Below, in pieces: positions 1 through 36,711 of a stretch of DNA of 64,000 nt. Within the stretch, counting starts at the first letter, position 1; every line of letters begins with the position of its first letter. The notes beneath the pieces were generated by a model. The model worked only from the letters and a program-made list of their open reading frames with translations, did no database searches and had not been told where the DNA came from. The translations under genes were made by a program, and so were the position numbers. The DNA comes from an uncultured Flavobacteriales bacterium (lineage in GTDB: Bacteria; Bacteroidota; Bacteroidia; Flavobacteriales_G; Salibacteraceae): NCBI GenBank assembly GCA_937121175.1, contig CAKZKD010000001.1, positions 1-64,000 on the forward strand, read 5' to 3'.

Positions 1-58
1 TAAATACGCTGAAAATCACAGCCGAGTGATTTACGACCGAGTGAGCGGAAATTGCTGG
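1..58 (-). other. end of a further cassette, cut by the window edge
   Basis: This stretch contains the short motif CCGAGTG twice (TCACAGCCGAGTG and TTACGACCGAGTG). The same motif recurs in the two non-coding cassettes at 3211-3460 and 5441-5690. It ends at the TAAC that opens the first attC-like site, so I infer that the cassette array continues beyond the window and that the next cassette is of the same non-coding kind. No gene is visible. Confidence 0.5.
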
Positions 59-261
59 TAACGCCCCGCAGCCAAGGCAAGTAGGGCAGAGGAAGTATGT
101 TGAGCGGCTGCAGCACCGCAGGTTCTCATCACTCTGATTGAGCGCGTGGGAAAAAACATACTGACCATTGTACTCACTTAGAAGCTAGGCTTAAAGGTTA
201 TTAAATTTCTATCGTTTCAAATATATAACAGGCCGCCCTATTTGCTTTGTGGCTGCTGTTA
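59..261 (-). repeat. attC-like site A (after the HEPN cassette gene)
   Basis: Imperfect palindrome. TAAC at 59-62 faces GTTA at 258-261. Inner box GCAGCC (68-73) pairs with GGCTGC (251-256). Between TAAC and the inner box the left arm has five unpaired bases and the right arm about one, like the unpaired central spacer of integron attC sites. Further in, GGCAAGTAGGGC pairs with GCCCTATTTGC with bulges. The stop codon of the adjacent gene lies inside the right outer box. Confidence 0.75.
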
Positions 262-1278
262 TTGCACGTTCTTTTTGTTCTCCCAGTAATATTTAAAATT
301 TAAATGGTCAATGTTGTTCGTAATTAAACTTCGTATTGAAGCTAACAATATTGCCAAAGCAAAAGCTGAATAGTCTGTGTATTCTTCGTTAAAGCCTTTA
401 AAATCGTGTCCATGTCTTGACGTGAAATCCATGTCTCCATGTATCAATCTAGAACGAAAATCATAGAGTTTGGTTAATTTCTTTTTGTATTCCTTCGGTT
501 TGCCAAGAACAATTGTGCTTTTCTCTTGTAATTGTTTCGCAACACCTGAATTTCCGACACAATAAATGGATTCAAGCCCCAGCATAATCCAGAATAAGGA
601 ATCCGTTTCAGATTGATGTATATCATCTTTTATTAAATAGGAATATGCGCTAATTGCTCGACTAGCCGCGGAATCACTTTTAATTGATAGGTTAATGTCA
701 AACTTGTTCGTCCAATCAAGAAAATCCGAAAAATTAACCGGTTGTAATTCTGGCCAACCGTAAATTGCACTTGCTTCATACGCGAAATCTCCAGAGTGAG
801 TGTAACTTCTTGTTCTACCAATCTGTTTTCCGTCTACGAACACTGCCGCTTTTAAAAATGAAATTGGGAACGCATAGCTAATATTTAAAAACAACGAAAG
901 CCTAAACAAATATGAATTAGCATAATGCAGGTAAATAAAGCCATCTTCATTATCATCTTCTACGGAAAAAACAGTGAGGCTGAGAATTAAAAAATCATGA
1001 ATGTAAAAAGTGGGTTCCACACCAGTTTTTTCTATCATTTCATTAGCGCGCTCATCCTCCTCGTTGACGAATTCAAAATTTATCGAAAGAAGTCTTTTAT
1101 AATTAGGAATCTCACACTTGTCTAGTAAATGAAGAAAACGTTCATCATTCTTATAATTATTAATTTCTTTTTTAAATTTTTCAAACTCGTCATAGCAGGC
1201 TTGAATTTCAGGAAGTGAGTTGTAATCCCTTACAGGAATATAAACTTCGATTCTCTCGGTATCTTCTTTAGGTTTCAT
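259..1278 (-). CDS. HEPN-domain (ApeA-like) protein, cassette gene
   Basis: A 339-residue soluble protein. The C-terminal third carries what looks like an ApeA-type HEPN domain: helices around residues 215-320 with the RX4H signature in RSRLIHG (near residue 278), preceded by the LFWIMLGLESIY segment common in this group. The N-terminal two thirds resemble the variable sensor half of such proteins, but I recognise no named domain there. HEPN domains are often metal-independent RNases in defence or toxin systems; a defence role here is inference. It is the only gene between attC-like sites A and B, and its TAA stop overlaps site A, so gene and site are fused tightly. Start is the ATG 66 bases inside the cassette. 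Confidence 0.7.
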   Translation of the reverse strand: MKPKEDTERIEVYIPVRDYNSLPEIQACYDEFEKFKKEINNYKNDERFLHLLDKCEIPNYKRLLSINFEFVNEEDERANEMIEKTGVEPTFYIHDFLILSLTVFSVEDDNEDGFIYLHYANSYLFRLSLFLNISYAFPISFLKAAVFVDGKQIGRTRSYTHSGDFAYEASAIYGWPELQPVNFSDFLDWTNKFDINLSIKSDSAASRAISAYSYLIKDDIHQSETDSLFWIMLGLESIYCVGNSGVAKQLQEKSTIVLGKPKEYKKKLTKLYDFRSRLIHGDMDFTSRHGHDFKGFNEEYTDYSAFALAILLASIRSLITNNIDHLNFKYYWENKKNVQ

Positions 1279-1343
1279 TAACCTCTAAATTACAATTTGC
1301 AGAAGGTTTGATTTCTTAACATGAACGAAAAAAGAATGTGCCA

Positions 1344-1470
1344 TAACGCCCCGTGGCCAAGGCATGTGCGGGATTAAAAAGTTGGACTTTGGATTTCATT
1401 CTATCGTTTGTTCGAGGTATTTCGTTTCAAATTTATACTATCGCTAGCATTTGCCTTGTGGCCACTGTTA
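1344..1470 (-). repeat. attC-like site B
   Basis: A short site (127 bp). TAAC at 1344-1347 faces GTTA at 1467-1470. Inner box GTGGCC (1353-1358) pairs with GGCCAC (1460-1465). The left outer box belongs to the HEPN cassette (GTGCCATAAC, the complement of GTTATTGCAC at 258 apart from a one-base displacement). The right outer box belongs to the next cassette (GTTATGTGC). Confidence 0.75.
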
Positions 1471-1477
1471 TGTGCTT

Positions 1478-1927
1478 TTAATTAATCGTTAAGACTCCTT
1501 TCTTTATCTTATAACTTATCAGGTTTCTACTGTCTACATTTTCTCCATTCAATTGACCTGTTGTCCAATCTTCAAGAGTCATAAAAATTGCAAGTAACTG
1601 TGCGTCCAGTTCCTTATTAGTTTTTACAGAAACTTTCCATTCTAATGGCTCACCTTTACAGTTTATGTAAACTCCAAACATTCCTTTCGCTTTAAATTTG
1701 GGGTGTGATTTTAGATATTCTGCTTCATTAAGCAACTTTTGGATTTCTAGCTTATTAAGACTGCATTCAGCTTTTTTTTGCCCTTCGAAGCTGTTAAATA
1801 ATCCGAACACACGATTATGGTCACAAATTCCTTCAACATTCTCCTTCATTTCTACCGTGGCGATAAACTGGGCGGAAAGGATTGAGGTTGAGAATAGAAT
1901 TATTGCAGATATTATTACTTTTTTCAT
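1478..1927 (-). CDS. secreted protein with TonB C-terminal-like fold, cassette gene
   Basis: 149 residues with a clear signal peptide (MKKVIISAIILFSTSILSAQ). Residues 85-145 contain a pattern seen in TonB C-terminal or energy-transducer-like domains: a VYINCKGEP strand-turn, an alternating helix, then a W..GQLNGENV turn and a final strand ending KIKKGVL. There is no membrane anchor or proline-rich linker, so it is not a classical TonB; I infer a periplasmic or exported protein of unknown role. It overlaps the preceding gene by four bases (ATGA at 1924-1927), so the two are translationally coupled within one cassette. Confidence 0.55.
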   Translation of the reverse strand: MKKVIISAIILFSTSILSAQFIATVEMKENVEGICDHNRVFGLFNSFEGQKKAECSLNKLEIQKLLNEAEYLKSHPKFKAKGMFGVYINCKGEPLEWKVSVKTNKELDAQLLAIFMTLEDWTTGQLNGENVDSRNLISYKIKKGVLTIN

Positions 1928-2232
1928 TGTTTTATTTTTAGATTTTCTATTTGAGGGTATCTGACTAATTCCGAGAAGTCAACTTTCCAAAAATCCAATT
2001 CAAACAGATTTCCAGCTTTATCTGAAGTCAACTCTATATCGACTAAAACTCCGTCTTTATCAGTGAAAACTGCTGCGGCAATTTGATTGACTCTGTTTTC
2101 TTTTTTGGTTAAATCAAATTTTATGGAGCCCATTCCTCCATCTTTCAGGTCGACGACCAATTCAGGAATTTCCAGATTTGGTCCTGCCAGAAATCGTATT
2201 AATTTTTTTTCGTTCTCTCGGATTGGTCTCAT
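1924..2232 (-). CDS. DUF6984-like small protein, cassette gene
   Basis: 102 residues, soluble, without signal peptide. The opening MRPIRENEKKLIRFL and the central LKDGGMGSIKF segment match what I recall of the DUF6984 family, small proteins of unknown function frequent in Bacteroidota and often in cassette-like settings. It is the first gene of a two-gene cassette and overlaps the start of the TonB-C-like gene by four bases. Twelve bases separate its ATG from the TAAC of site C, leaving no room for a promoter inside the cassette, so it is presumably read from upstream. Confidence 0.55.
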   Translation of the reverse strand: MRPIRENEKKLIRFLAGPNLEIPELVVDLKDGGMGSIKFDLTKKENRVNQIAAAVFTDKDGVLVDIELTSDKAGNLFELDFWKVDFSELVRYPQIENLKIKQ

Positions 2233-2244
2233 CTTAATTGCACA

Positions 2245-2452
2245 TAACGCCCCGCCGCTAAGGTAAGTGCGGGATACATGCTTTTGGGCGCGTGGGCAAA
2301 ATATTCATTCCTATTGCACTCTGATTGAGTGCGGCTGGAACCAAACACCAAAAGCATGCGAGCCGAAGACTTGGGTTTAACAAATAGGTTTATTCGTGGC
2401 ATTTCGTTTCAAATTTAATCAACTGCTAGCATTTTCCTTTTAGCGGCTGTTA
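2245..2452 (-). repeat. attC-like site C
   Basis: TAAC at 2245-2248 faces GTTA at 2449-2452 (208 bp). The inner box is different from its neighbours, GCCGCT (2254-2259), and its partner has changed to match, AGCGGC (2442-2447). This is direct covariation support for a folded site. Confidence 0.75.
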
Positions 2453-2494
2453 GCAAACGTATTGATTGGATTCTGACTTTAGTTTCGTTCAATT

Positions 2495-3025
2495 TTAGTT
2501 AGCTTTAATTCCTGATAATTTTCTAAATCTCCCGTTAGCGTCTCCGTCACTGATAAGAAACTTGGAATTAGACTTACTCCATTCAGAAAGAGTGTCATCG
2601 TAAACAAATACCGTATTTGCTATAATGAATGCGTTGCTTGGATTAGCTTCGTTTTTTTTAAAGAAGAAGATATACCACCAGTGCCTATCTCCATCAAGCC
2701 AATCATTATAACTTGATGCTTCCTTTTTATTATAAATGTGACCAACCACAGTATAATCTAATTCATTGTCCTCATCGACAGCTCGTCTACTGCCTGTAAT
2801 AAGAATTTTATCCCACTCAAAACAAGTTATTGTTTCACTTAGGTCTATCGTATCCAAATTCTGGTTTCTAAAGGAATTTTCAACCTTTTCCAGACAGAGA
2901 GTAGAGCCTTTTTCGGAAAGTCCGTCAACTGAAGCCCACCAAAAGATAAAAAAGCAAAAAACAGCTAATAACATAATTATTGGAATCGTTGCAACGAAAT
3001 AAACTATCGAGTCGAATATTTTCAT
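2495..3025 (-). CDS. small membrane-anchored protein, cassette gene
   Basis: 176 residues. One strong N-terminal membrane segment (about residues 8-30, IVYFVATIPIIMLLAVFCFFIFWW), then a soluble, probably extracytoplasmic domain with several Trp and Asp residues. I do not recognise a family. The gene is flanked by a ten-base inverted repeat unique to this cassette (GTTAGCAAAC at 2449 and GTTTGCTAAC at 3032). The ATG is seven bases from that repeat. Confidence 0.6.
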   Translation of the reverse strand: MKIFDSIVYFVATIPIIMLLAVFCFFIFWWASVDGLSEKGSTLCLEKVENSFRNQNLDTIDLSETITCFEWDKILITGSRRAVDEDNELDYTVVGHIYNKKEASSYNDWLDGDRHWWYIFFFKKNEANPSNAFIIANTVFVYDDTLSEWSKSNSKFLISDGDANGRFRKLSGIKAN

Positions 3026-3037
3026 CGGAATGTTTGC

Positions 3038-3210
3038 TAACGCCCCGCGGCCAAGGCAAGTTGTGGTTGGGAGGAAGCGGCAGTCATTTTCTCAAAAAAT
3101 GACAGAGCGACTGACCCTTTCACAAACTTACAAGTGAGACATTTGGGGTTGTTCATGGCACTAAAGTAAGGCAAACAACTCAATAACTATTTGCCTTTTG
3201 GCCGCTGTTA
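3038..3210 (-). repeat. attC-like site D (identical in kind to site H)
   Basis: TAAC at 3038-3041 faces GTTA at 3207-3210. Inner box GCGGCC (3047-3052) pairs with GGCCGC (3200-3205). An additional internal hairpin is present (TCATTTT and AAAATGA around 3090-3108). Site and neighbouring cassette together are repeated at 5271-5705. Confidence 0.75.
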
Positions 3211-3460
3211 CTCGCTGCCCCCAAGCATCCGAGTATATCAACAGAGTAAATACCCGGCTTTTCACAACCGAGTGTAAAAATGTCGGACTTGCAGAATGGT
3301 TCAGAGCCATTTTTCCTACCAACCAAAAAATGGCGACTACACAAAAGTTTCGAACTTAGTTCTTTAGAGAGATGGAGAGTTAGCTTTTCACAACTGAGTA
3401 AATAACGAGATTTTCACATCCGAGTTATTTTTCACAAGATTGACTTGGGGGATAGCTAGT
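3211..3460 (-). other. cassette without a convincing gene, copy 1
   Basis: About 250 bases lying between attC-like sites with no ORF that has a start codon. Its ends are complementary: GTTACT (3207-3212) with AGTAAC (3458-3463), and CCCCCAAG with CTTGGGGG further in. The motif TTTTCACAnCCGAGT recurs three to four times. A second copy at 5441-5690 differs at about ten positions. Possibilities are a non-coding RNA, a promoter-carrying cassette, or a decayed gene. Confidence 0.6.
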
Positions 3461-3667
3461 AACGCCCCGTGGCCAAGGCAAGTGCGGGGCAGCGATTTTG
3501 GGTGCGGCTGGAAAAATCTTCACTTCTATTGAGTTCTGATTGAGCGCGTTGGCAACCAACCACCAAAATTGCAGAATAATTAAACTTAACGTTATTTCTA
3601 TCGTTTATTCGAGGCATTTCGTTTCAAATTTACACTATCGCCAGCATTTGCCTTTTGGCCACTGTTA
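3460..3667 (-). repeat. attC-like site F
   Basis: TAAC at 3460-3463 faces GTTA at 3664-3667 (208 bp). Inner box GTGGCC (3469-3474) pairs with GGCCAC (3657-3662). The outer boxes differ on the two sides, as they belong to two different cassettes. Confidence 0.75.
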
Positions 3668-3707
3668 GCAAACGTTTATTAATCTTCGAAAGATTGGGAT
3701 TGTTCGT

Positions 3708-4267
3708 TTAAGCCCAGACAAATTTTTTATTTTTCTTAATTCGATTCATTTTCATCAGTTTAATCAATGGCTCCCATTCCCATGAGCGGATGTTAATTTG
3801 TATCCTTTCTTGCGACATCCAAAGTAATAATTGACGGGATGTGTCCATCGTAGCAAACAACATTTTATATTGATTAACTTCTTGCCAGCTATAAAGTCTA
3901 GCTGATTTTTCATTGAAGAAATTATTAACTATTATCTCCTTTTCAGAAATCCGTACTACTTTCAATCTAGACAAACCGATTAATACTAATAAACCACCAG
4001 ATAAAAGAAATAAGAATCCTTCTATCAATAATTCCGCAAGCAAATGGAATAGCCCCATGCTTGTGAATACAAACGCAGCCATGAAAAATAACATTCCACG
4101 CATATGTGTGTACCTTTTGTCAATCGTCAGTTTTATTTTATGTTGAGGAATGGTGTTTTTAAAATCTTCCTTGTGCTTTTCATAATTCTTTCGTCCAAAA
4201 TGATTCGCAACTAGCACTATAGTCAAAGCGATTATAAAGAACATTAGATTATAGGAGAGGTCTGTCA
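3708..4267 (-). CDS. membrane protein with PH-like cytoplasmic part, cassette gene
   Basis: About 186 residues from the chosen start MTDLSYNLMFF. A longer reading would start inside attC-like site G at 4322 and is unlikely. Three membrane segments are visible: residues 5-23, 56-76 and 80-100. After them comes a soluble domain with the strand pattern VVRISEKEIIVNN ... RLYSWQEVNQYK, which resembles bacterial PH-like domains of YcxB/YdbT-type proteins; that assignment is tentative. It is the only gene in its cassette, flanked by the inverted repeat GTTAGCAAAC (3664) and GTTTGCTAAC (4277). Confidence 0.6.
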
Positions 4268-4282
4268 TTGGGTAATGTTTGC

Positions 4283-4407
4283 TAACGCCCCGCAGCCATG
4301 AGTAGTAGGCCTCTCGTGGCACACTCTTCGGAACTCGGGTTTGGGTTATTAAATTTCATTCGTTTCAAAATTAAACAACACGGCCTATTACTCATTTGGG
4401 TGCTGTT
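4283..4407 (-). repeat. attC-like site G, diverged arms
   Basis: TAAC at 4283-4286 faces GTTA at 4404-4407. Inner box GCAGCC (4292-4297) meets GGGTGC (4398-4403) with one mismatch. The deeper arm is unlike the other sites but still pairs with itself: GAGTAGTAGGCC (4300-4311) with GGCCTATTACTC (4382-4393). This keeps structure while changing sequence. Confidence 0.75.
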
Positions 4408-4419
4408 AGGCCTTGTTCA

Positions 4420-5244
4420 TTAAACAACTTTATTCATATCAACAGGATAACCAGATTTCCGTAATTCTTTCGCTAAATCTAGCTTCCATTCAATTTCATG
4501 CGAAATGTAGACTACACCTGAAATGTCATTTGGCGTTTCGACCTCTCCTTTCACAATAGCGGCTACTCTTTTTCTTCCAATCTTTCCGATTAAGAATCCA
4601 TGCTCAAATACTACGTTTTGACGAGCTCTGTCTTGAAGATTTGGGCTTTTCGTTTTCTTGGCGCCGATATCACATGGAGTATATAGTACAACTCCAAATC
4701 CAACATCTGAATTACTTTCAATTTTCTCGATGATTGTTTGTCCCGAACTCGCTTGTTCGTGCAATATAATTGGTTTAAACCCCAGATCAGAAATGAACCT
4801 TGCAACTTCGGTTTTTAGTAAATCATCATGCCCATGAACAATGAAAACCTTCTCCATATCCAAAGAGTTATTCTCCACATTTGTTCTTGATTTCTCTTTC
4901 GATTGGATAAGGTCAGCTTTTAAATCAAGCTTCTCCAAAGCATGAACTTTGTTTTTAATTTTCTTTTTTAGTTTTTCAATTGGGTCTTCCATTCTTTCCC
5001 CAGTTGGTATAATGCCTTCCCAAATTCCGAATTGTTCATACTCTTTTCTGTATTCGTTATTTGGTTCATTGAAAGACTGTTTTAGTAGTTCTCGATTATA
5101 GTCATGCCACTTACAAAAATCATCTTCCAGTTCATCTAATTCTGGGTATGTCCTAATTTGCCTACTTAATAGTTCCTTGCCGAGGTCAATTCGGGTGTTA
5201 AGTTTTTCTTTAAAGGCTTGCTGCGAAATTTTTAATTCAGTCAT
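4420..5244 (-). CDS. TIR-like nucleotide-binding protein (PF10137-type), cassette gene
   Basis: About 274 residues from MTELKISQQAF; the longer frame would start inside attC-like site H. Residues 130-270 match the predicted nucleotide-binding, TIR-like family: VFIVHGHDD opening strand and loop, an arrangement of LHEQASSGQTIIEKIE, then VLYTPCDIGA and RARQNVVFEHGFLIGKIGR. The first 125 residues are helical and charged, without a named domain. Members of this family act as NAD-cleaving or nucleotide-sensing effectors in antiviral systems; that role is inference here. It is the only gene of its cassette, flanked by GTTAGGCC (4404) and GGCCTAAC (5264). Confidence 0.8.
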   Translation of the reverse strand: MTELKISQQAFKEKLNTRIDLGKELLSRQIRTYPELDELEDDFCKWHDYNRELLKQSFNEPNNEYRKEYEQFGIWEGIIPTGERMEDPIEKLKKKIKNKVHALEKLDLKADLIQSKEKSRTNVENNSLDMEKVFIVHGHDDLLKTEVARFISDLGFKPIILHEQASSGQTIIEKIESNSDVGFGVVLYTPCDIGAKKTKSPNLQDRARQNVVFEHGFLIGKIGRKRVAAIVKGEVETPNDISGVVYISHEIEWKLDLAKELRKSGYPVDMNKVV

Positions 5245-5267
5245 TTGGTAATCTTTGGAATATGGCC

Positions 5268-5440
5268 TAACGCCCCGCGGCCAAGGCAAGTTGTGGTTGG
5301 GAGGAAGCGGCAGTCATTTTCTCAAAAAATGACAGAGCGACTGACCCTTTCACAAACTTACAAGTGAGACATTTGGGGTTGTTCATGGCACTAAAGTAAG
5401 GCAAACAACTCAATAACTATTTGCCTTTTGGCCGCTGTTA
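5268..5440 (-). repeat. attC-like site H
   Basis: TAAC at 5268-5271 faces GTTA at 5437-5440. Inner box GCGGCC (5277-5282) pairs with GGCCGC (5430-5435). From the first C onwards it matches site D essentially base for base, while the outer left box differs (GGCCTAAC against GTTTGCTAAC). That boundary is exactly what cassette exchange at the TAAC/GTTA box would produce. Confidence 0.75.
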
Positions 5441-5690
5441 CTCGCTGCCCCCAAGCATCCGAGTATATCAACAGAGTAAATACCCAGCTTTTCACGACCG
5501 AGTGTAAAAGTGTCGGACTTGCAGAATGTTTCAGAGCCATTTTTCCTACCAACCAAAAAATGGTGACTGCACAAAAGTTTCGAACTTAGTTCTTTAGAGA
5601 GATTGAGAGTTAGCTTTTCACAACTGAGTAAATAACCAGATTTTCCCATCCGAGTTATTTTTCACAAGATTGACTTGGGGGATAGCTAGT
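5441..5690 (-). other. cassette without a convincing gene, copy 2
   Basis: Near-identical to 3211-3460, with about ten substitutions. An open frame of 79 codons (5410-5649) exists on the minus strand here, but its start codon is a stop in copy 1. Nearly all differences between the copies would change the amino acid, so there is no sign of selection on protein. The ends pair as GTTACT (5437) and AGTAAC (5688). Confidence 0.6.
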
Positions 5691-5884
5691 AACGCCCCGT
5701 GGCCAAGGTAAGTAGGGCTGTGGAGGCAAATTGTGTGTAGGCCAAAAAAACACCGCGTACTGATTGAGCGGGCGGGGAAAATTTGCCGACCATGCAGAGG
5801 CCTTGGAATTTTAACTTTCGGTTCATAAATAACTATCGTTCCAAATATAGCACAAACGCCCTATTTGCCTTTTGGCCACTGTTA
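5690..5884 (-). repeat. attC-like site J (nearest the recombinase)
   Basis: TAAC at 5690-5693 faces GTTA at 5881-5884. Inner box GTGGCC (5699-5704) pairs with GGCCAC (5874-5879). The deeper arm AGTAGGGC pairs with GCCCTATTTGCC. The stop codon of the adjacent gene (5888-5890) lies inside the extended outer box TAATGCTAAC. Confidence 0.75.
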
Positions 5885-5887
5885 GCA

Positions 5888-6421
5888 TTAGTCCGTTTTA
5901 TTTTCACAGTAGTCAACCCATTTATATAAAAGCTTCATATTCAAGTTCAACGAATCTCCAAATTCTCTGTGTTCAGCGTTGAAGCTCATATCATATAAAG
6001 TATCCGAATTACTTAAAATAAGCATGTGTTGAGCTGCTCCATCATGGATAATCACATCTTCGGGATATATTGGTAATTCAGGTCTAATTGAAAGAATATT
6101 AGTAGAATCTAAGAATTTGAAAATAGCTTCTTGGCAGGTCTTGTTCTCAGTTTTTTGAACTTTTACTTTTGCTTTATTGGAAAGGTAATATTCTGTAATT
6201 ACAGAATTCGAGAGGGTCATGAATTTTAAACTTGAACCAAGGTAATATTTGACATAGACTACCGAATCTCGGGTTAATCCAAGTTCTGCAATACTTTCAT
6301 CAATTTTATCATAAGACTTTCTCATGTTTCTATAATAATTCCGGTCCTTTAAAGAACTGTGACACCCTGATATGAATATCCCAAAAGAAAAACTAGTTAT
6401 TAATAAAGCAATTGATTTCAC
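5888..6421 (-). CDS. lipoprotein of unknown function, cassette gene next to the recombinase
   Basis: About 177 residues from a GTG start that gives a clean lipoprotein signal, MKSIALLITSFSFGIFISGC. The longer ATG reading at 6475 would begin outside the cassette, in the recombinase 3' flank. The mature part is soluble and about 155 residues; I recognise no family. The gene is flanked by the inverted repeat GTTAGCATTA (5881) and TAATGCTAAC (6437). As the cassette closest to the recombinase it would be the most recently inserted one by analogy with integrons. Confidence 0.65.
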   Translation of the reverse strand: MKSIALLITSFSFGIFISGCHSSLKDRNYYRNMRKSYDKIDESIAELGLTRDSVVYVKYYLGSSLKFMTLSNSVITEYYLSNKAKVKVQKTENKTCQEAIFKFLDSTNILSIRPELPIYPEDVIIHDGAAQHMLILSNSDTLYDMSFNAEHREFGDSLNLNMKLLYKWVDYCENKTD

Positions 6422-6439
6422 TTGATGTGCGAGGATTAA

Positions 6440-6484
6440 TGCTAACTCGTTATATAACACACCAAATCTACGCATATCAACCGC
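6440..6484 (-). other. candidate attI-like insertion site
   Basis: This is the gap between the recombinase stop and the first cassette. It has a perfect ten-base palindrome GTTATATAAC (6449-6458) three bases from the cassette boundary TAATGCTAAC (6437-6446). No full attC-like arm is present on the recombinase side, so the array ends here and the short palindrome is the natural candidate for the primary site. Inference from position and symmetry only. Confidence 0.4.
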
Positions 6485-7249
6485 TTATTTACGTGATAAG
6501 AGTGCATTTTTACTATTTCCCTTACCCGATTCTAACTCAATTTGTTTTGCATTTGCAACCATGGTATCAAATGGACTGCGGACCTTTAATAATTCCTTTT
6601 TCGTGACATGAGTGTATATCTGAGTCGTCTCAGGCCTTGAATGACCCAATAGTATTTGTACATATCGTAAATCCACCCCTTGTTCCAGCAAATGCGTAGC
6701 ATAACTGTGCCGAAAAGTGTGAGGTGTAACACGCTTCTTTATTCCGGCCTTGCTCACAGCACGTCTTATTATCGAACGAACACTAGTTGCAGAATAAGGA
6801 GCACCTTCCGATCCTAAAAATAGGTGGTCACGAGGAGTATATTCCATAATATACGAACGTAATAAAACCGCCAGCCCATCTCCTAAACTAACCACTCGCC
6901 ATTTTCCTCCTTTTCCATTTTTTATTGAAATCTCCATTCGGTCAAAATCCAAATCGTGTACCCTTAAATTCAACAGTTCACCAACCCGCAATCCAGCTCC
7001 ATATAGCAACGAAACTATGACTCGGTGCTTTACATTTTTTAAATGCCTGAGTATATCCAATACTTCTTCGGAACTCAAAACAGTAGGTAATGCCTTTAAG
7101 CGTTTGGGTGCTTGAAGGTCTTCCTGTGGCAAAAATTGTTGCGGTAGCAATTGTTGCAAAATCTTTAGAGCAGCAATAAACTGTCTGTGATAGCTCCTTT
7201 GAATAATGATGCTTGACAATATATTCTGCAGAAAATCGCTCAACGTCAA
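6485..7249 (-). CDS. tyrosine recombinase, catalytic part (frame broken near 7195)
   Basis: Catalytic half of a tyrosine recombinase. The visible active-site residues are Arg in GAGLRVGELL, Lys in KNGKGGKWR, HTFRH, His in LLGHSRPETTQIYTHV, and the nucleophile Tyr in the same stretch. Length and spacing are XerC/XerD-like; the roughly 20-residue insertion that marks integron IntI proteins between the Lys and the HxxR box is absent. The N-terminal half continues in another frame (see next entry); the real product needs a one-base shift near the AAAGGAG at about 7193-7200. It reads in the same direction as the cassettes and ends 39 bases from the first cassette boundary. The TTG opening this frame is probably not the true start. 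Confidence 0.8.
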   Translation of the reverse strand: MTLSDFLQNILSSIIIQRSYHRQFIAALKILQQLLPQQFLPQEDLQAPKRLKALPTVLSSEEVLDILRHLKNVKHRVIVSLLYGAGLRVGELLNLRVHDLDFDRMEISIKNGKGGKWRVVSLGDGLAVLLRSYIMEYTPRDHLFLGSEGAPYSATSVRSIIRRAVSKAGIKKRVTPHTFRHSYATHLLEQGVDLRYVQILLGHSRPETTQIYTHVTKKELLKVRSPFDTMVANAKQIELESGKGNSKNALLSRK

Positions 7250-7694
7250 CCATAGATATGTGCAAAGGATGCTTTTTACAATAATAAAAGAAGCCCTTTA
7301 TCATGTTGTAATACGTATCAATTGTAGTCTGTGCATATCTGGCCGATTTCATTCTGCGAGTAAAAAAATACAAAACCTCCCGAACCTCTTTTTGTTCATC
7401 AACTGAGGTCAGTTCTCGATACTTTATTCTTTTGGTTAATTGAGCATAAGGCAGTTTTCGCGCATCAGCCAAAAACTGTTCAAATTCTACTTTAGCAATG
7501 TTCTTAAATGCAGACTTAATTTTTTTGTAATTCGTGCGGTCCAAAGGCAAATACCAAGCATTCTTAGTGTAACTCCAATTAGCCCCAATCTGTTTGCAAA
7601 GAGATTTTAAATGCTGGTCGAACTCAAAGACAATAAAAATTTGATTTTGATTTCTGTGAAACCCTAGTTCGAGTCGAATCGTTTTAGTTGGCAT
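7200..7694 (-). pseudogene. tyrosine recombinase, N-terminal part (frameshifted)
   Basis: This frame supplies the N-terminal half of the recombinase. About 75 residues form an accessory domain with the motif NWSYTKNAWYLPLDR, also seen in other Bacteroidota integrases. A SAM-like core-binding domain follows (TTIDTYYNMIKGFFYYCKKH) and ends in YIVKHHYSK. Reading then has to skip one base to join SYHRQFIAALKILQQLL of the downstream frame; without it the frame runs on as nonsense to 6978. The chosen ATG at 7694 begins MPTKTIRLELG; an ATG further up at 7751 is possible. The cause may be a mutation, a sequencing error, or a +1 programmed shift helped by the Shine-Dalgarno-like AAAGGAG. Confidence 0.7.
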
Positions 7695-7811
7695 ATGGTA
7701 AGAAGGTTTAAATTGATTGTACAAACCTAGCCAAAAAGGAAACCAATGCAATTAAAAAAAAATGGTTATTAAATTCAACTCAACCGTAACTCTATTTCTC
7801 AACACCAAAGT

Positions 7812-8566: not shown

Positions 8567-8602
8567 AATCCATCTCATTCATCCACCCAAACAAACCTCC
8601 AT

Positions 8603-9205: not shown

Positions 9206-9255
9206 TGTAGTGTTTTTTTGTATGTAAATTATTTGTTGCGCCGTCTTCCGTTCTG

Positions 9256-11844: not shown

Positions 11845-11878
11845 GACTGTACTTAAATGAGAATATACTGTTGAGTTT

Positions 11879-12811: not shown

Positions 12812-13282
12812 AATAGGGCTCTTTACTAGTAAGTACCGAAAAGGAAGAAGCACACGTAAGCGAAACAAAGTTTTTTTTGATTCTAAACTTTTTGTTGTGC
12901 TCAGCTTGACTAAGAATCTAGGCTTTATGAGCTAGAAACGAATCCAAATTTTAACCTGTTATGCTGAATTTAGTTCATCACCTTTTCAACTGAAACTCGT
13001 CAGAATATGACTTGGCGGTCCACATAAATTCAAGAGGTTTTCAACGCTAGGGTATATGTTCGCTTCTCGATGCACTGCTCGTTCCTCGAAGTATTCGAAG
13101 TTTTAGTTATGGTTGCAGAGTTTAATCATTGCTGCTCGTTCGACCGAGCACTAGATTTGACCTAGCCTCTTTGCTTAGGAATTAGGAGTTCGATAATCAT
13201 GAAGTGAAAAAACTAAAACGCTGTCAGTTCGAGTGTTTTTAAGTATCCTGCGGAATGAAAATGTATCGAGAACAAAGCAATT
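12812..13282. other. 470-base intergenic region between FecR and sigma genes
   Basis: No convincing gene. The stretch around 12954-13020 (GTTATGCTGAATTTAGTTCA and CAGAATATGAC) looks like a decayed copy of the interspersed palindromic repeat that is intact at 17425-17445. A small dyad GCTCG...CGAGC lies near 13136-13151. The FecR promoter is expected here but I could not place it with confidence. Confidence 0.4.
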
Positions 13283-13861
13283 TCAAATAAACAAACCCAT
13301 AAACACTGCAATGGCAGTGTCTTTCGGTAAATTCTTTCGCAAATGTTTTAGCGCATTCGAAATATGCGTTTCCACGGTACGTTGACTCAAGTTTAGATTT
13401 TTGGCAATTTCTGAATTGGTCAATTCCTCTTCTCTACTCAGTAGAAAAACTTCTTTGCATCGCTCTGGAAGAGAAGCAATTACTAAATTAACATTGGATT
13501 CAAATTCCTTGTATTCCAACTCATTATTTACACTGACCAGGTTAATATCCTGACTGATTTCTTCGGCGTGCTTAAAGTGGTTATTTCGAATTACATTAAG
13601 TGATGCAAACTTTACCGCTCTTGCCAAATAGTGCTCTAGATTTTTGATGTTGCGTTCTTCTCGTTTTTCCCAAAGATTGAGAAAAACTTCTTGGACTATA
13701 TCCTTTGCAGCTTCCGAATCGTTTAAAATACGTTTGGCAATTGAATAGAGTCTTTCCCAATTCCCTTCAAATATTTTGAAATAAGCATCTTCATCTCCTT
13801 GCTTAAGTTGCTCCAAAAGAATTTTTTCAGCATCCAGGTTTAGATTATTCGGAGAATTCAT
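13283..13861 (-). CDS. ECF RNA polymerase sigma factor
   Basis: 192 residues. Sigma region 2 spans about residues 25-95 (YFKIFEGNWERLYSIAKRILNDSEAAKDIVQEVFLNLWEKR, the core-binding and -10 recognition helices). Region 4 spans about 125-180 and includes the helix-turn-helix SREEELTNSEIAKNLNLSQRTVETHISNALKHLRK. It belongs to the FecI-like group usual in Bacteroidota. With the FecR-like and TonB receptor genes on the same strand it forms a cell-surface signalling locus, though 470 bases separate it from fecR, so it may have its own transcript. Confidence 0.9.
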   Translation of the reverse strand: MNSPNNLNLDAEKILLEQLKQGDEDAYFKIFEGNWERLYSIAKRILNDSEAAKDIVQEVFLNLWEKREERNIKNLEHYLARAVKFASLNVIRNNHFKHAEEISQDINLVSVNNELEYKEFESNVNLVIASLPERCKEVFLLSREEELTNSEIAKNLNLSQRTVETHISNALKHLRKNLPKDTAIAVFMGLFI

Positions 13862-13944
13862 TCTAACAAAAGAAGTAAAATGATTCTTAAGGTGATGATA
13901 AATTCGTTTTAATCCTTGACCCAGTTTTTATTTAGCTTTACCTA

Positions 13945-15435
13945 ATGAAATTTCTAACCACAATTTTTGCCATCATAGCTTTATTCACAACCTTCGCTCA
14001 ATCAAAATTCGTAGTTGACTTTGGTGCGTCAAAAGGTCCCATGAGTTTTTTTGGAATTAACGAAGGAATTCAAATTAACGACACCTTATTTGGTCTGGCC
14101 ACTACTTCGCGAAGGGTTGACGAATACAAAAAGCTACAATTGTTTAATGCTTCTGGTGATGACTTAAACCAATCTTTAGGTGCGCCTTCTTCTTGGTCGG
14201 GCGGTTCTTACCCATATTTCTATAAACTACAAAATACGTTTTTGCAAAGTAGTTCTTATGACACAGTTGGTGGAGCAATGCGTTATCTAACTCAATTGTA
14301 CAATGTCTCTGCGAATGTTATTTGGAGCGATTCTAACCTTCTGCTACGCTTTCCATTCTCACTCCAACAAAATGAAATATTAGCGGTTAATTACTCTGCT
14401 CAAGCGGAATTGGTACAAATCGATGCGCGTGGAGCAGTGTTGTGGTCAATTTCAATTGATTCGTTAAACTCAGGAACTTTAAGTGATTCAATATTACAGG
14501 TAGCTGGTTGCGGTTTTCTGGATAATAAGTATTGGGTAATGTTGTCTAATTCTTCTAATTCTGAGAATTTATTCATCTCTTTAAATAATAATCAGCAAGT
14601 TGTTTCTAAAAAGAAGTTTACCGATACGGGATTGTTAGAAGCATTTCAATTGGGTAACAGGATTGTCACTGTCAAAACCAACTACGCAACTGGGAACCCA
14701 AGAGACGCTATTAATCATTCGATTGATATTTACGACTCAAATTTCAATTCAATTAAATCAATTTCATACAGTGCAAACGAAGCAACCGAAATAATTGATG
14801 TTGCAGTAAGTGGAGCGTTTATTTACCTCCTAGTGTATCACATAACGCTTGTAAACTCAAGTAAGGTGTATTTCACAGAAGTACAAAAATTGGACAAGGA
14901 TGGAAATCAAGTTAGAAGTAATCTTTATCGGTTTTGGCTAAATCATAAAAATGAGCCGAACGTTCAAATTGGCCAAAATTCAGATTTCAGGTCGTTGCAC
15001 ATTTGTAATGATGGGGGGTATTTAATGACTGGATACATTGGTTCAGGCTATGACCAACGAACCGTTGCAATAAAGCTGGATTCGAACGGATTGGGAGATG
15101 ATACATTGAAGATTCCTGTTGATCGAATGCCTTTAATCTTTTGGGATCGGGACACAATTAGTGCGGATACGTTGCAAGTTGTTCGCAAGGAATCAATTGC
15201 TAATACTATTACGGTATTTCCAAATCCAGCTCATTCTGAACTTTTTATTCAACATTCTGCTGAAAGAATAGAGTACAAGTTATTCGAAAGCTCTGGTAGC
15301 GTGGTTTTTTGTGGTTGGTCTCATGAAAAAATCATAAAACTGAATACAACTGATTTTCAAGATGGGATTTATTGGCTGCAATTACGATTTGGTGACAATA
15401 GTATGGTCTCAAAACGAGTAATTATTTCAAAATAA
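13945..15435 (+). CDS. type IX-secreted protein of unknown function
   Basis: 496 residues. Signal peptide MKFLTTIFAIIALFTTFAQS. The body has repeated beta-propeller-like strands with recurrent NxxIWSDSN and VQIDARGAVLWSI patterns, typical of PQQ-like or delta-60 secreted proteins. The C-terminal 80 residues are a type A sorting domain (ITVFPNPAHSELFIQ ... DGIYWLQLRF ... KRVIISK). The protein should therefore be exported through the type IX system and attached to or released from the surface. Divergent from the sigma gene. Confidence 0.8.
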   Translation: MKFLTTIFAIIALFTTFAQSKFVVDFGASKGPMSFFGINEGIQINDTLFGLATTSRRVDEYKKLQLFNASGDDLNQSLGAPSSWSGGSYPYFYKLQNTFLQSSSYDTVGGAMRYLTQLYNVSANVIWSDSNLLLRFPFSLQQNEILAVNYSAQAELVQIDARGAVLWSISIDSLNSGTLSDSILQVAGCGFLDNKYWVMLSNSSNSENLFISLNNNQQVVSKKKFTDTGLLEAFQLGNRIVTVKTNYATGNPRDAINHSIDIYDSNFNSIKSISYSANEATEIIDVAVSGAFIYLLVYHITLVNSSKVYFTEVQKLDKDGNQVRSNLYRFWLNHKNEPNVQIGQNSDFRSLHICNDGGYLMTGYIGSGYDQRTVAIKLDSNGLGDDTLKIPVDRMPLIFWDRDTISADTLQVVRKESIANTITVFPNPAHSELFIQHSAERIEYKLFESSGSVVFCGWSHEKIIKLNTTDFQDGIYWLQLRFGDNSMVSKRVIISK

Positions 15436-32518: not shown

Positions 32519-32568
32519 GAGTTCAAAGTTGGTTAAAATAGGTCTATGATATTATGTATTTTATTTAA

Positions 32569-32625
32569 GCAACTATTTGGTTGCGTAAATAAAAAAATTC
32601 TGTATAATTGCAACCAATTAGTTGC
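32569..32625 (+). promoter_or_regulatory. promoter flanked by two operator-like dyads (SRPBCC/ArsR operon)
   Basis: GCAACTATTTGGTTGC (32569-32584) and GCAACCAATTAGTTGC (32610-32625) are 16-base dyads and are the same site in opposite orientations (the complement of the second is GCAACTAATTGGTTGC). Their centres lie 41 bases apart, close to four helix turns. TTG at 32581-32583 and TATAATTG at 32603-32610, spaced 19 bases, fit a promoter framed by the dyads. An ArsR-type repressor encoded in the operon is the natural candidate to bind; that is inference. Confidence 0.65.
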
Positions 32626-32643
32626 ATATTAATACTAAAAATT

Positions 32644-33075
32644 ATGAAAGACGAAATAGTTAAAGAAAGACATTACAATCAATCAATTGACAAGGTATGG
32701 AATGCGATTACCAAAGCAGAAGAAATTTCGAAATGGTTTATTAGCGCAGATTTTAAACTGGAAAAGGGTTACCAGTACACACTAACTGCTACTGAGGCAC
32801 ATGGCGGTACACAAATTAAAGGTGAGGTCTTAGAAGTTGACCCTTATACCTTAAAGTACACGTGGGATGTGGAAGGCACAGGCATGCATACTATCGTTTC
32901 TTGGATGTTAGAAGAAGAAAATGGCAAAACAAAGTTAACATTAGTGCATTCGGGCATTGCTCAATTTGGAGAGCAGGGAGTAGAAATGATGGGCCATTTT
33001 GACAAAGGATGGGAAGCCTGTTTACAAGTATTACCTAACTATTTAGAAAATGAAGCAACAGAACCGGCACATTGA
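32644..33075 (+). CDS. SRPBCC (AHSA1-like) protein
   Basis: 143 residues from MKDEIVKERHYNQSIDKVWNAITKAEEISKWF. The Bet v1-like/START cavity fold is recognised by the opening strand, the KVWNAIT helix, and the final helix GHFDKGWEACLQVLPNYLE. Function is not assigned in this family. It overlaps the ArsR gene by 26 bases; SRPBCC-ArsR pairs of this kind are common and usually co-regulated. Confidence 0.88.
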   Translation: MKDEIVKERHYNQSIDKVWNAITKAEEISKWFISADFKLEKGYQYTLTATEAHGGTQIKGEVLEVDPYTLKYTWDVEGTGMHTIVSWMLEEENGKTKLTLVHSGIAQFGEQGVEMMGHFDKGWEACLQVLPNYLENEATEPAH

Positions 33076-33385
33076 TCGTGTTTTCAAAGCAATTGCGGAC
33101 CCTACAAGACGTGAAATTTTTCACGCTCTTGTGGTGGCCAGTGCAGCATTGCCCATCACACAAATTGCACAGCAGTTTGATATTAGTAGGCAAGGCGTAA
33201 CGAAGCAAATAAAAGTGCTAGAAGAGGCTGGATTAATTACCAGTAATTCTAATGGAAGAGAACGTTTTTGCCAAGCGAACCCAAAACAACTAAAGTTGAT
33301 TACGGATTGGATTGCTTTTTACGATAAATTCTGGGATGATGCTTTGGGTCGCTTGGATAATCATTTAGGGCAGGCTGATACTTAA
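33050..33385 (+). CDS. ArsR-family transcriptional regulator
   Basis: 111 residues. Winged helix with the typical RVFKAIADPTRREIFHALVVASAALPITQIAQQFDISRQGVTKQIKVLEEAGLITS stretch. No Cys or His metal site is apparent, so it is not a metal sensor of the classic type. Coupled to the SRPBCC gene and probably an autoregulator through the dyads at 32569-32625. Just after its stop begins an accessory block bounded by a direct repeat. Confidence 0.9.
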   Translation: MKQQNRHIDRVFKAIADPTRREIFHALVVASAALPITQIAQQFDISRQGVTKQIKVLEEAGLITSNSNGRERFCQANPKQLKLITDWIAFYDKFWDDALGRLDNHLGQADT

Positions 33386-33536
33386 AATAAGGGTGTTTGC
33401 AACAGTTAGTATAATAGCAGTAGCGGATTGATGCATTTATTTTCGGACAGCGAGATACTTAATTAAAGTAAAAAGAGATTCGAGGTTACTTCCAAACTGC
33501 TATTGCTTTAATATATTGTTGTGTACTTCCTTTTTG

Positions 33537-34157
33537 CTATTTGAACTTTTTTATAACCTTCTCTACACGTTTTCTTTTTGTTTCTTTTTCAATGTCGTCA
33601 AGTCTTGAAGTAAGAGTTTCCACAAAAAGGATTTTGTTTTTTTCATTAATTACAGGTATTGCTCTTTCAGCATACATTGGAAGTTGATTTGTAGGACTTT
33701 TCAAAAGCTGTTCTATAAGTAAATTAAAAGCACCATCTGTGTGACTTTTTGTAGTACACAGTTTTATCAAAATATTTACAGCGTGGTCTTTGGTAATAAC
33801 TGAGCCTTTGTCCGCAGCTTTAAGGATGGTTGGAAGTATCTCATAAATTTCTTTAGGGCGTTCAATTGTGATCGTACCCAGAGCAATCATTGCGCCCCAT
33901 TGTAACCGGTTGTTCTTACTGTGTAGTTGTTGTACAAACTCATTGATATAATCGGCAATGAGTTTAGGCTCTTGCTCTCCAATTTCATAAAGTACTTTTA
34001 TACAGTCGTTTTGAATGGCTTTAGTATTGGATAGGTTTTCAATCAATTCTTTAACAGCTTTCTTGTTTTTTGAAAGTATAATTTCTTTAGCAAGTTCTTG
34101 ATTGGGTACTTCATCTCTTCGATTAAGTGAAGAGGCTAATTTTTCGATAATACTCAT
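33537..34157 (-). CDS. HEAT-repeat-like helical protein
   Basis: 206 residues, all helical. Paired helices of about 35 residues (AVKELIENLSNTKAIQNDCIKVLYEIGEQEPKLIADY, then LQWGAMIALGTITIERPKEIYEILPTIL) suggest HEAT or armadillo repeats, a scaffold for binding proteins or DNA. I chose the ATG whose ATGA overlaps the upstream zinc-ribbon stop; an ATG 12 bases earlier (34169) is also possible. Function unknown. It lies in the accessory block 33400-36486. Confidence 0.6.
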   Translation of the reverse strand: MSIIEKLASSLNRRDEVPNQELAKEIILSKNKKAVKELIENLSNTKAIQNDCIKVLYEIGEQEPKLIADYINEFVQQLHSKNNRLQWGAMIALGTITIERPKEIYEILPTILKAADKGSVITKDHAVNILIKLCTTKSHTDGAFNLLIEQLLKSPTNQLPMYAERAIPVINEKNKILFVETLTSRLDDIEKETKRKRVEKVIKKFK

Positions 34158-34420
34158 ATATTTTTCCATCTTTTAAGGTTAGGGATTTTTTTAACGAACG
34201 AATTTGCGAAGAGAGACATAATAAATCCCATTCCCTTCATTTTCTCCTTTACAAAATCTTGCATTTGTTTGACAGTCCAGTCAGGATTTATGAATTTTCC
34301 ATTTTCGTAACAATAGGCACAATAGATTTTACTAATTGTACCGTCAGTATTTGTTCCGCCACCATTTGGTGATTTTTTTAGAGGCATTCCGCAACTCTGA
34401 CAGCTTTTAAATTGTTCCAT
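34154..34420 (-). CDS. zinc-ribbon domain protein
   Basis: About 88 residues from MEQFKSCQSCGMPLKK. Two CxxC pairs (CQSC and CAYC) frame a ribbon with a glycine-rich spacer. The family, a putative zinc ribbon domain often annotated from Bacteroidota and Firmicutes, has a C-terminal helical tail (VKQMQDFVKEKMKGMGF) that is present here. Function unknown. Coupled by a four-base overlap to the HEAT-like gene and preceded by the WYL regulator gene on the same strand. Confidence 0.75.
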   Translation of the reverse strand: MEQFKSCQSCGMPLKKSPNGGGTNTDGTISKIYCAYCYENGKFINPDWTVKQMQDFVKEKMKGMGFIMSLFANSFVKKIPNLKRWKNI

Positions 34421-34482
34421 AAATATTAATTTTAACAAAGATAAATCGGCTCACTGACAGCCCTATGTCAGTACTTTTCATT

Positions 34483-35169
34483 TTATTTTTGTTCCAATGA
34501 TTTTATGTAGTCATTTACATCCAAATGATTTGATTTTCTAAAGGGTTCTATTAAGTTTTCTAGATGATTTATCTTTTTAATTTTAAAATCTCGGTAAGCA
34601 TTCCGTTTCCAGCACCAAGCAATTAAATGCCATTGATTGGAATAGAATGTTAGACCTATTGGCTCTATTTCTCTGATACTTTTTTCTTCTTTATTATTGA
34701 TGTAGACTATCTTTAAAATTTGCTTGGTAATTATTGCTTTTTGTGTTTCAGTTAAATAGTTAGAAACCTCTAAAGTATTGGGTGAATTGTATATTTTAAT
34801 TTGTGATTGTAGAAAACCTACCTCTTCCTTTTTATCTGCTCTTAAGCTTGCCGTTATTTTTGAAATTGCATTTTCAATATGAGTTTTGGTCGTCTTGTCT
34901 GCAAATTTTTCAGATAACGTAGATATGAGTATTAATGAATTTGCTTCTTCGCTTGTCAACGAAATAGGTGGTAGGAAGAACCCTTGAAGAATTGAGTATC
35001 CTTTATGGCTTTCAAAACTAATAGGGACACCAATTTCTCCAAGTGCTTTTAGGTCACGATAAACCGTTCTTTCACTGATTTTGTATTTATCAGCAATAAA
35101 TTTAGCTGTTATATTTTTTTTTGATTGTAACGTAGTTAGGATAGCAACAAGTCTGTCAATTCTATTCAT
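34483..35169 (-). CDS. YafY-like helix-turn-helix/WYL-domain regulator
   Basis: 228 residues. HTH_11 at the N-terminus (RLVAILTTLQSKKNITAKFIADKYKISERTVYRDLKALGEIGVPI). A WYL domain follows (about residues 135-215, with VYINNKEEKSIREIEPIGLTFYSNQWHLIAWCWKRNAYRDFKIKKI). WYL regulators respond to nucleotide-like or single-stranded nucleic acid ligands and often sit in accessory or defence regions. It is upstream of the zinc-ribbon and HEAT-like genes on the same strand and may control them. Confidence 0.88.
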   Translation of the reverse strand: MNRIDRLVAILTTLQSKKNITAKFIADKYKISERTVYRDLKALGEIGVPISFESHKGYSILQGFFLPPISLTSEEANSLILISTLSEKFADKTTKTHIENAISKITASLRADKKEEVGFLQSQIKIYNSPNTLEVSNYLTETQKAIITKQILKIVYINNKEEKSIREIEPIGLTFYSNQWHLIAWCWKRNAYRDFKIKKINHLENLIEPFRKSNHLDVNDYIKSLEQK

Positions 35170-35212
35170 TTATTGCTCTTTATTTGGCTTTTTAGCTCAC
35201 CTAACGGCCCTG

Positions 35213-35770
35213 CTATGAAACGTGCCTGGAAGGGCATACTTTTATTGCGTCTTTTGGCTCTTGGAGTATAAGTCCTTTTTCTGATAGTTCTTTTAATTTG
35301 TCTTTATCTCTGCTAAGGGCTAGTCTGGTGTAAAGTGCTGAATCGTATTGTCTTTGAAGTTCTCTGACGCTCCAATTATTTTTTGCCGACTCTATTTCAT
35401 AGAATGAACGCTCATTTATATCATCAATTCTCATAAGCGTCAGGTAATGAGACCAACTCAAGTTGAAATCCGCAGGCAGCGTCTGCGTTTTTGAGTAGGT
35501 CAAATAGAATTTTCTCATCTGCTCAACATTCCTTTGAGAAAACCCTTTGCCAAATTCTTTTGTCAGTATGGTCGAAAGCTCTTTAATTAACTCCTTCCCG
35601 TATTCAGCTCTATCTTTCCCACTCTGTTGTTCTTCAAATATCATTCTCCCAATTTCAAAGTATGTGAGAACCATTGTGTGGTTTACAGCTTGAACTACTC
35701 TTTGGCGAGCACTTTTGAGTAGTTTGACTATTTGAGCATGAAAATCTGTATTTGAAACTTTGCTAGTCAT
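35213..35770 (-). pseudogene. truncated DUF1016 (YhcG-type) gene
   Basis: About 185 residues from MTSKVSNTDFHAQIVKL. The N-terminal DUF1016 domain is complete (VNHTMVLTYFEIGRMIFEEQQSGKDRAEYGKELIKELS through FYEIESAKNNWSVRELQRQYDSALYTRLALSRDK). The C-terminal PD-(D/E)xK nuclease half, which should follow PKDAIK with a DPYVLEFL-like stretch, is missing. After PKDAIK the reading continues for eight unrelated residues (VCPSRHVS) and stops. I infer a deletion or recombination joint. The joint lies next to TAACGGCCC (35198-35206), which weakly resembles a cassette end. Confidence 0.7.
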
Positions 35771-35911
35771 TTTTTTAACTTTTTCAAAAGTAGCACAGTT
35801 TTCTATCAAGGTTGCCAAATGAAGCTCTTTTGGTTTTCAGCTTTTGGGTTGAATGTTGGCAAAATAAAATGTGCTGTTTGTGGGAGAGATTTTTACATTA
35901 CTTTCAATGGT

Positions 35912-36038
35912 TACGTATAACCGTCGGTTACGGGTTAAATTAACGATTATTTTCGGTTTATCACTGACGTTAGCAATTCCGAGTTGATTCGGACGTAGTC
36001 GAATCCGCCGTAATTGCGGTTATACATCGTTGTGTAAC
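35912..36038 (-). repeat. attC-like palindrome of a second type
   Basis: The left arm (35912-35933) contains GTATAACCGtcggTTACGG; the right arm (36008-36026) contains CCGTAATTGCGGTTATA, its imperfect complement with an unpaired centre. The right end runs into CGTTGTGTAAC (36028-36038), which is repeated inverted as GTTACACAACG at 36467-36477 on the far side of the next gene. The layout (folded site, gene, cassette-specific ends) is that of the array at 1-6.4 kb, but the sequence family is different. Confidence 0.55.
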
Positions 36039-36457
36039 GTTTTTTTATTCAGTTTTTGGTTTATTAAAATCAGTCCGAGTATTACTAAAAGAGCGAAAAT
36101 TGATGAAAATGAAAACGCCCCTTCCATGTTTTCCGCGAATGGTTTTTTAAATGATTCAAAAAGTACAATTTCTCCAAATCCACCTAAAATCCACGTTGTT
36201 AATTCATATATAATAAAAGCTACAATTAAAGAAATCAGTTTATTCTGCAAACTGATTATCCGTTTTCTAAATATCAAAACGAGAGTGATTTCAATTCCGA
36301 ATACTATTAGTAAAACTATTCCAACAAGAAAAGGTATCATTCCGATATCCCCACCAGGCAATGTAGATTGGGAAATCCAAATCATAAAAAATGTCATTGT
36401 CAGAATTGGGTAAATCAGACAATAAATTATCATTTCGTTTTTATTCGGATTTTTCAT
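36020..36457 (-). CDS. four-helix membrane protein, solitary cassette-like gene
   Basis: 145 residues with four membrane segments (about 9-27, 38-60, 72-95 and 112-135) and short loops. No family recognised. It is flanked by an 11-base inverted repeat (CGTTGTGTAAC at 36028 and GTTACACAACG at 36467). Its last codons and TAA stop run across that repeat into the palindromic site downstream, as in two genes of the main array. I infer a single mobile cassette. Confidence 0.65.
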   Translation of the reverse strand: MKNPNKNEMIIYCLIYPILTMTFFMIWISQSTLPGGDIGMIPFLVGIVLLIVFGIEITLVLIFRKRIISLQNKLISLIVAFIIYELTTWILGGFGEIVLFESFKKPFAENMEGAFSFSSIFALLVILGLILINQKLNKKTLHNDV

Positions 36458-36711
36458 TTTTCAAATGTTACACAACGGTTAGTATATGGCAAGTAGGGCA
36501 GTAGAAAGCGATGTTATTAGCTCTTTTTATCGTTATTTGATTATGTTGTTAATGTTCAATTGATTAGATTTAATAAGTCTGCAGAGTGGACTAGAAACCG
36601 AATTTAAACTTTTTCGGAAACAATGGCAAAGTGGTGGGAAAATCACTTCATTCACTTTGGTTCAGCTTATGATTAAGCTTCATTTATTATTGGGTCAGTA
36701 GATTTTAGAAT

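Follow-up and report, generated by a model that had tools for sequence, protein, structure and literature searches.

Why is a small membrane protein gene of an uncultured Flavobacteriales bacterium enclosed by an inverted repeat and followed by a palindrome? The gene is located in the 64,000-nt stretch of contig CAKZKD010000001.1 that was analysed in this study (the window). The two halves of the repeat, CGTTGTGTAAC (36028-36038) and GTTACACAACG (36467-36477), flank ORF 36020-36457(-), match exactly over 11 bp in inverted orientation and have no further exact copy in the window. The initial annotation took this region for a solitary cassette with a second type of attC-like site, and the reading as a cassette holds, with complementary outer arms and an inner site that is reused elsewhere. 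The region 35909-36476 is very probably one integron-like gene cassette belonging to the system of a Xer-like recombinase, and the copy at 36 kb is probably a fossil. Features are listed in Table 1.

Table 1. Positions of the features in the window
Feature	Position	Strand	Remarks
Main cassette array	258..6446	-	8 cassettes; complementary outer arms; other inner-stem type
attI-like stretch (TATATAACGA|GTTAGCATTA)	6447..6484	-	From recombinase stop to first cassette; inspection against L079, L087 and L090
Tyrosine recombinase beside main array	6485..7751	-	Two frames: 6981-7751 N-terminal, 6485-7249 catalytic
Variable segment holding the cassette	32530..36702		Between PCD and PaaI genes
Second, weaker attC-like site	33404..33527	-	After HEAT-like gene 33537-34169
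Apparent half-site junction CATAGCAGGGCC|GTTAGGTGAGC	35195..35217	-	Before WYL regulator gene; inspection
DUF1016_N gene after the site	35213..35818	-	Truncated-looking; positions 4-184 of the 351-position PDC-S02 profile
attC-like site, inner part	35909..36028	-	Stem GTATAACCG.../...CGGTTATAC; ends GTAACC then ATTG
Cassette gene	36020..36457	-	145-aa protein; four hydrophobic segments (hydropathy peaks, ORF list)
R''-like outer arm GTTACACAAC	36029..36038	-	Gene 3' end; exact complement of R'
R'-like outer arm GTTGTGTAAC	36467..36476	-	Cassette 5' end
Apparent 3' half of lost upstream attC-like site (CTGCCCTACTTGCCATATACTAACC|GTT)	36477..36501	-	Inspection; no 5' arm upstream

Read along the strand of the gene, the region runs ...CATATACTAACC|GTTGTGTAACATTTGAAAA-ATG-gene-AACGTTACACAAC|GATGTATAACCG...CGGTTATACGTAACC|ATTG. 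The palindrome is a ~120-nt imperfect hairpin directly 3' of the gene, and both of the arm pairs described for it, GTATAACCG/CGGTTATAC and TTACGG/CCGTAA, were located. The stop codon of the gene lies inside this site, and the range of our scan of ORF flanks was widened after a first scan had missed the cassette for that reason. By this layout, the flanking 10 bp are the cassette's own outer arms, which would pair in a circular cassette. Four further matches of the 11-mer in the same genome appeared on inspection to be coding or chance sequence. The 145-aa protein gave no Pfam match at E 0.01; its only homologue among 296 genomes of the phylum was itself, and 395 genomes of the class yielded only weak matches (best E 8e-4) with stops inside.

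The following mechanism is likely. In the circular form, the outer arms GTTACACAAC and GTTGTGTAAC would enclose an imperfect inner stem to make an attC-like hairpin. A Xer-like tyrosine recombinase, of the type encoded at array heads in many Bacteroidota, would most likely bind the folded bottom strand and cut at G|TT, so that the cassette is inserted or excised.

Attachment sites of integrons (attC) fold better on the bottom strand. In the window, the linear 146-nt piece showed a modest folding excess over dinucleotide shuffles (z -1.9 and -1.4). For the modelled circular form, composed of R'', the inner part and its own R', comparison with mononucleotide shuffles gave z values of -5.9 and -6.6, which are clearer partly because the complementary outer arms are included. 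Energy was lower on the bottom strand in all of 23 complete sites (that of the window plus 22 from arrays in 8 loci), with means of -27.0 (bottom) and -23.4 (top) kcal/mol; the window site had -28.8 and -27.0 kcal/mol, respectively. Of 234 control segments, the bottom strand had the lower energy in 124 and the top strand in 107, with a mean difference of -0.23. The Wilcoxon p of 2.7e-5 for the sites overstates the evidence, since related sites are not independent and 50 of the 81 strongly folding controls were also bottom-leaning. The bias itself is present throughout the set, and recombination may proceed on a single strand.

The cassettes of the main array follow the same plan. With ends taken from the site boundaries, the outer arms are exactly complementary in 3/8 cassettes and have one mismatch in 10 in the other 5/8; for the first cassette, R' and R'' were taken from separate output lines. 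Two arm types are used twice, and two cassettes are merely ~257 nt long. GTT-starting inverted repeats enclose ORFs 2495-3025 (GTTAGCAAAC), 5888-6475 (GTTAGCATTA) and 4420-5289 (GTTAGGCC). Taken together, the two arms of a cassette match each other, most cassettes differ in their arms, and cassette boundaries can be drawn from them. Because the main-array cassettes have this arm plan, the two cassette families that had been proposed are, by this comparison, inner-stem types of one site class. Different stem types do coexist on the chromosome, but the CGTTGTGTAAC arms are no mark of a family. Likewise, the claim that the arms at 36 kb are unrelated to the main array is right for the inner stem and fails for the rest, since GGCAAGTAGGGCAG of the half-site upstream recurs in a main-array site and the outer arms are arranged alike. 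Mixture of stem types was also seen elsewhere: in genome G344 of the same class, an array at a contig end (L089) has eight cassettes with GTT-starting 9- or 10-bp repeats, and inspection revealed four or more inner-stem types in it.

The arms were counted more widely. In the window and 20 recombinase or array loci, one of which (L089) had been chosen for its copy of the 11-mer, GTT-starting repeats of 10 bp or more flanked 16 of 590 ORFs, and shuffling of the downstream flanks within loci gave 0-3 of ~570 ORFs (20 permutations). A scan of the window and 16 array loci listed 37 exact 10-bp repeats, among which 35 sequences were distinct. All 37 began with GTTR, the fourth base being A or G in every case though any base was allowed, and only 4 of the 37 listed R' cores fit GTTRRRY.

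In its own genome, the main-array site gave 57 matches on 10 contigs, namely the window (1-6446) and nine others (G000 C3, C9, C14, C20, C29, C30, C31, C36 and C38), in a count that takes pieces of one site apart and admits E up to 1. This suggests a superintegron-sized array that is broken across contigs in the assembly. The two ~257-nt cassettes (3207-3464 and 5437-5694) share their arms and lack an evident gene, and they overlap or adjoin 300-nt stretches that are 97% identical (3022-3321 and 5252-5551); as they stand in the array, they are duplicated small cassettes. Another cassette gene of the main array, 4423-5289, encodes a CAP12/Pycsar-type TIR domain and matches PADLOC PDC-S35.

In this assembly, the gene of the recombinase next to the main array carries a frameshift. 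Matches to its N-terminal part occur in 21 of 60 relatives, own genome included. In the surroundings of such matches in its own and related genomes, 6 of 19 loci had a repeat that begins with GTT on the strand of the recombinase (L073, L077, L079, L081, L083 and L087). Contigs were then scanned with an alignment of 15 proteins, and of 589 or more loci the 80 best were used. In 27 of these 80 the match starts at query position 60 or before and includes the N-terminal part; they contained 23 strict cassette ORFs against a permuted expectation of 1.6, and 22 of the 23 lay downstream on the same strand as the recombinase, in 10 loci. The remaining 53 Xer-like loci of the 80 contained 4 (expectation 1.6), one of them downstream. 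No strict cassette was found downstream in 17 of the 27 loci, 13 of which have less than 2.4 kb of downstream DNA and four of which (L094, L098, L113 and L119) have 3.7-10 kb. Strict cassettes occur in Algibacter onchidii (5), Seonamhaeicola aphaedonensis (4), Winogradskyella ursingii (2) and Algoriphagus ornithinivorans (1). Cassette arrays immediately behind the recombinase are seen in loci with the N-terminal part. The same recombinase type was also seen on contigs labelled as MAGs of Spirochaetota, Firmicutes and Undinarchaeales (L107, L102 and L108), where binning errors are possible; L107 has one strict cassette. Just upstream of the split recombinase in the window, a direct repeat of ~236 nt is present in three or more copies (7807-8600).

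A second, intact homologue is encoded on contig C4 of the same genome (L074, G000:C4:77000-93000; 7247-8437). It is followed by GTTATGCCCA, four ORFs (C5 methylase, HATPase_c_3, Z1 and DUF4420), and GGGCATAAC with a hairpin ending in ...CATATACTAAAC|GTT. The recombinase and the resulting 6.4-kb cassette span 7247-14860 of this locus, and the genes resemble a defence set. The initial annotation had thought that one enzyme might mobilise both site types. One enzyme class could serve both; an array with mixed stem types behind one recombinase exists in L105 (described below), and the intact recombinase is a candidate mover of both.

Might the cassette have been captured by an ordinary IntI as a canonical attC cassette? 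The likeness to integrons, CALIN and single-attC elements included, is considerable: cassette array, complementary outer arms, imperfect hairpin, bottom-strand folding bias and a recombinase heading the array are common to both. A TATAAC-like stretch that may correspond to attI precedes the first GTT in the window, L079, L087 and L090, though it is not evident in all loci. The enzyme differs, however. The six recombinase proteins or pieces tested scored 177-212 bits with the integron integrase family TIGR02249, each in two stretches and all below its cut-off of 265; since all 14 control genomes also matched TIGR02249, the family match alone says little. The own genome yielded no IntI above this cut-off. 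In the IntI structure 2a3v, 64 residues (180-243) stand against 21 in the protein of L071, so the additional domain of IntI is missing, and the region of this domain was absent from the array-linked recombinases tested; instead, these enzymes have an extra N-terminal part of ~100 residues. The outer arms measure ~10 bp and their core is GTTR instead of GTTRRRY, and the array lies behind the recombinase on the same strand. Capture by an ordinary IntI is thus unlikely. From the lack of the IntI-specific domain and from the 4/37 cores that fit GTTRRRY, we regard the system as an integron-like variant. NF040815 (XerA / integron integrase) was the best-scoring family for all six queries (201-236 bits, three of them above the cut-off of 220), and PDB 5hxy was the best solved structure for the one protein tested, whereas linkage to cassette arrays and the N-terminal extension set the recombinase apart from Xer/XerA.

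Few complete integrons are reported from Bacteroidota in the literature examined. Bacteroidota are named among the integron-bearing phyla in the parts of PMC9668308 and PMC8618304 that were available, and PMC9024848, in the part available, speaks of earlier In0 elements only and of a single complete integron, that of Salinibacter ruber; the phylum group is the same as here, but the recombinases described here fall below the IntI cut-off. In the available text, the additional domain is taken as a mark of IntI (PMC9668308 and PMC2426708), and the insertion of integron-like recombinases is said not to be fully conserved (PMC8138268). The core rule GTTRRRY comes from the consulted part of PMC8876359. 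Eleven taxon models were built in PMC8352920, whose main text as available contains no word beginning with 'Bacteroid'. Our literature search, whose coverage left out most subscription journals and preprints, returned no report of such a system. The near-identical sites that stand after different genes in other genomes (described below) suggest an integron-like system of gene capture that has received little notice. It is likely that Bacteroidota possess a widespread system of their own, with a Xer-like recombinase lacking the IntI domain, single-stranded attC-like hairpins, superintegron-sized arrays, and accessory and defence genes including the 6.4-kb four-gene cassette. If so, tools that rely on IntI and GTTRRRY would have missed it, it would be an overlooked reservoir of gene exchange in environmental Bacteroidota, and it would offer comparative material on the origin of integrons from Xer recombinases. 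If a recombinase without the additional domain handles folded attC-like sites, this domain would not be essential for cassette recombination.

We searched the DNA of the 36-kb site in other genomes. It matched 12 of 375 genomes of the class, own included; the 11 of 374 others contained 13 sites of 83-92% identity, one of them just a 31-nt piece. Together with a site of Flavobacteriaceae bacterium S0862 (L105), 14 sites were compared. R'' ends in AAC in 12 of the 14, and an exact complementary R' of 9-10 bp is present somewhere upstream in the fetched locus in 10. A detectable complementary R' is missing in 4/14; two of these, L172 and L180, also lack AAC and were left out of the R' search. No ORF of 40 aa ends at L172, and a 238-aa ORF ends at L180. 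The proteins encoded before 12 of the 14 sites have no similarity to the protein of the 36-kb gene, and among themselves only one weak pair was found (L176/L178, E 1.7e-4). When the window site was aligned with 10 of the 14 (L172, L179, L180 and L181 excluded), the conserved block extended from the AAC end of R'' to CC|GTT, with both outer sides variable. GTT follows CC in 10/10 aligned relatives, where the window has ATT (ATTG in place of CCGTT). In L105, the 36-kb stem type occurs in the second cassette behind the recombinase, after a NERD-domain gene, in an array that has other stem types behind the same recombinase. No match of the site was found in the phage and plasmid collections.

This comparison bears on a further possibility, that the segment is a MITE whose 11-bp terminal inverted repeats CGTTGTGTAAC enclose the gene, and that it was moved by a DDE transposase. 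An exact inverted repeat around a single gene and a segment that is missing in relatives would be expected of such an element, but related sites keep the inner palindrome and differ in R'', and constant terminal repeats are contradicted by the 35 distinct sequences among the 37 listed repeats, all GTTR. We consider a MITE very improbable. A fixed 3' element of the gene, such as a terminator or an mRNA hairpin, is hardly credible: the hairpin does follow the gene directly and contains its stop codon, but the same site stands after unrelated genes (L105, L171, L173-L179 and L183) and folding is better on the strand that does not encode the gene. Because near-identical sites elsewhere follow genes that, where inspected, are unrelated to this one, the palindrome is, in these genomes, not a fixed part of the 36-kb gene. 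The outcome that would have spoken against the cassette, a palindrome always with the same gene, did not occur, and the integron-like cassette is the reading that we retain.

Searches with the arms alone were less useful. The paired pattern GTTACACAACG...TATAACCGCAATT had 0 matches over the contig collection, and two-ended core patterns had none in 395 genomes and one on a viral contig (L018) that appeared unrelated; such patterns were ill-conceived because the neighbouring cassette usually bears other arms. CGTTGTGTAACATTT is rare (3/60 relatives and 2/395 genomes, own genome in both counts); by inspection its matches L014 and L017 appeared to be chance, and L016 was a true array.

The cassette at 36 kb is not quite solitary, as had been supposed. 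Apparent half-sites lie directly upstream of it and near 35206, and a weaker hairpin follows at 33 kb, which as it stands folds at -8.2 (bottom) and -7.1 (top) kcal/mol and for which no complementary R' was found. By inspection, the upstream half-site and the main-array site 76-89 both carry GGCAAGTAGGGCAG. The variable segment is absent or replaced in two genomes of the same genus (G297 and G298), in which the PaaI-PCD spacing is ~170 nt and 0.9 kb, respectively, against 4.2 kb in the window. The 0.9-kb gap contains an unrelated 290-aa ORF, the intervening genes of the window had no match within the 10.5 kb fetched from the two genomes, and no precise empty site was found in this comparison. 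The region looks like a degraded mini-array. In the integron model, excision needs two intact flanking sites. With just half of a site upstream and ATT as its own 3' core, the 36-kb cassette is probably a fossil that is immobile now, with excision weak or absent. A leader motif, AAAACCAAAAGAGCT, was also observed after an attC- or attI-like junction at 35823 (-) of the window, 6813 of L073 and 8521 of L074, and among the fetched loci it occurs in these three places and in overlapping copies of them.
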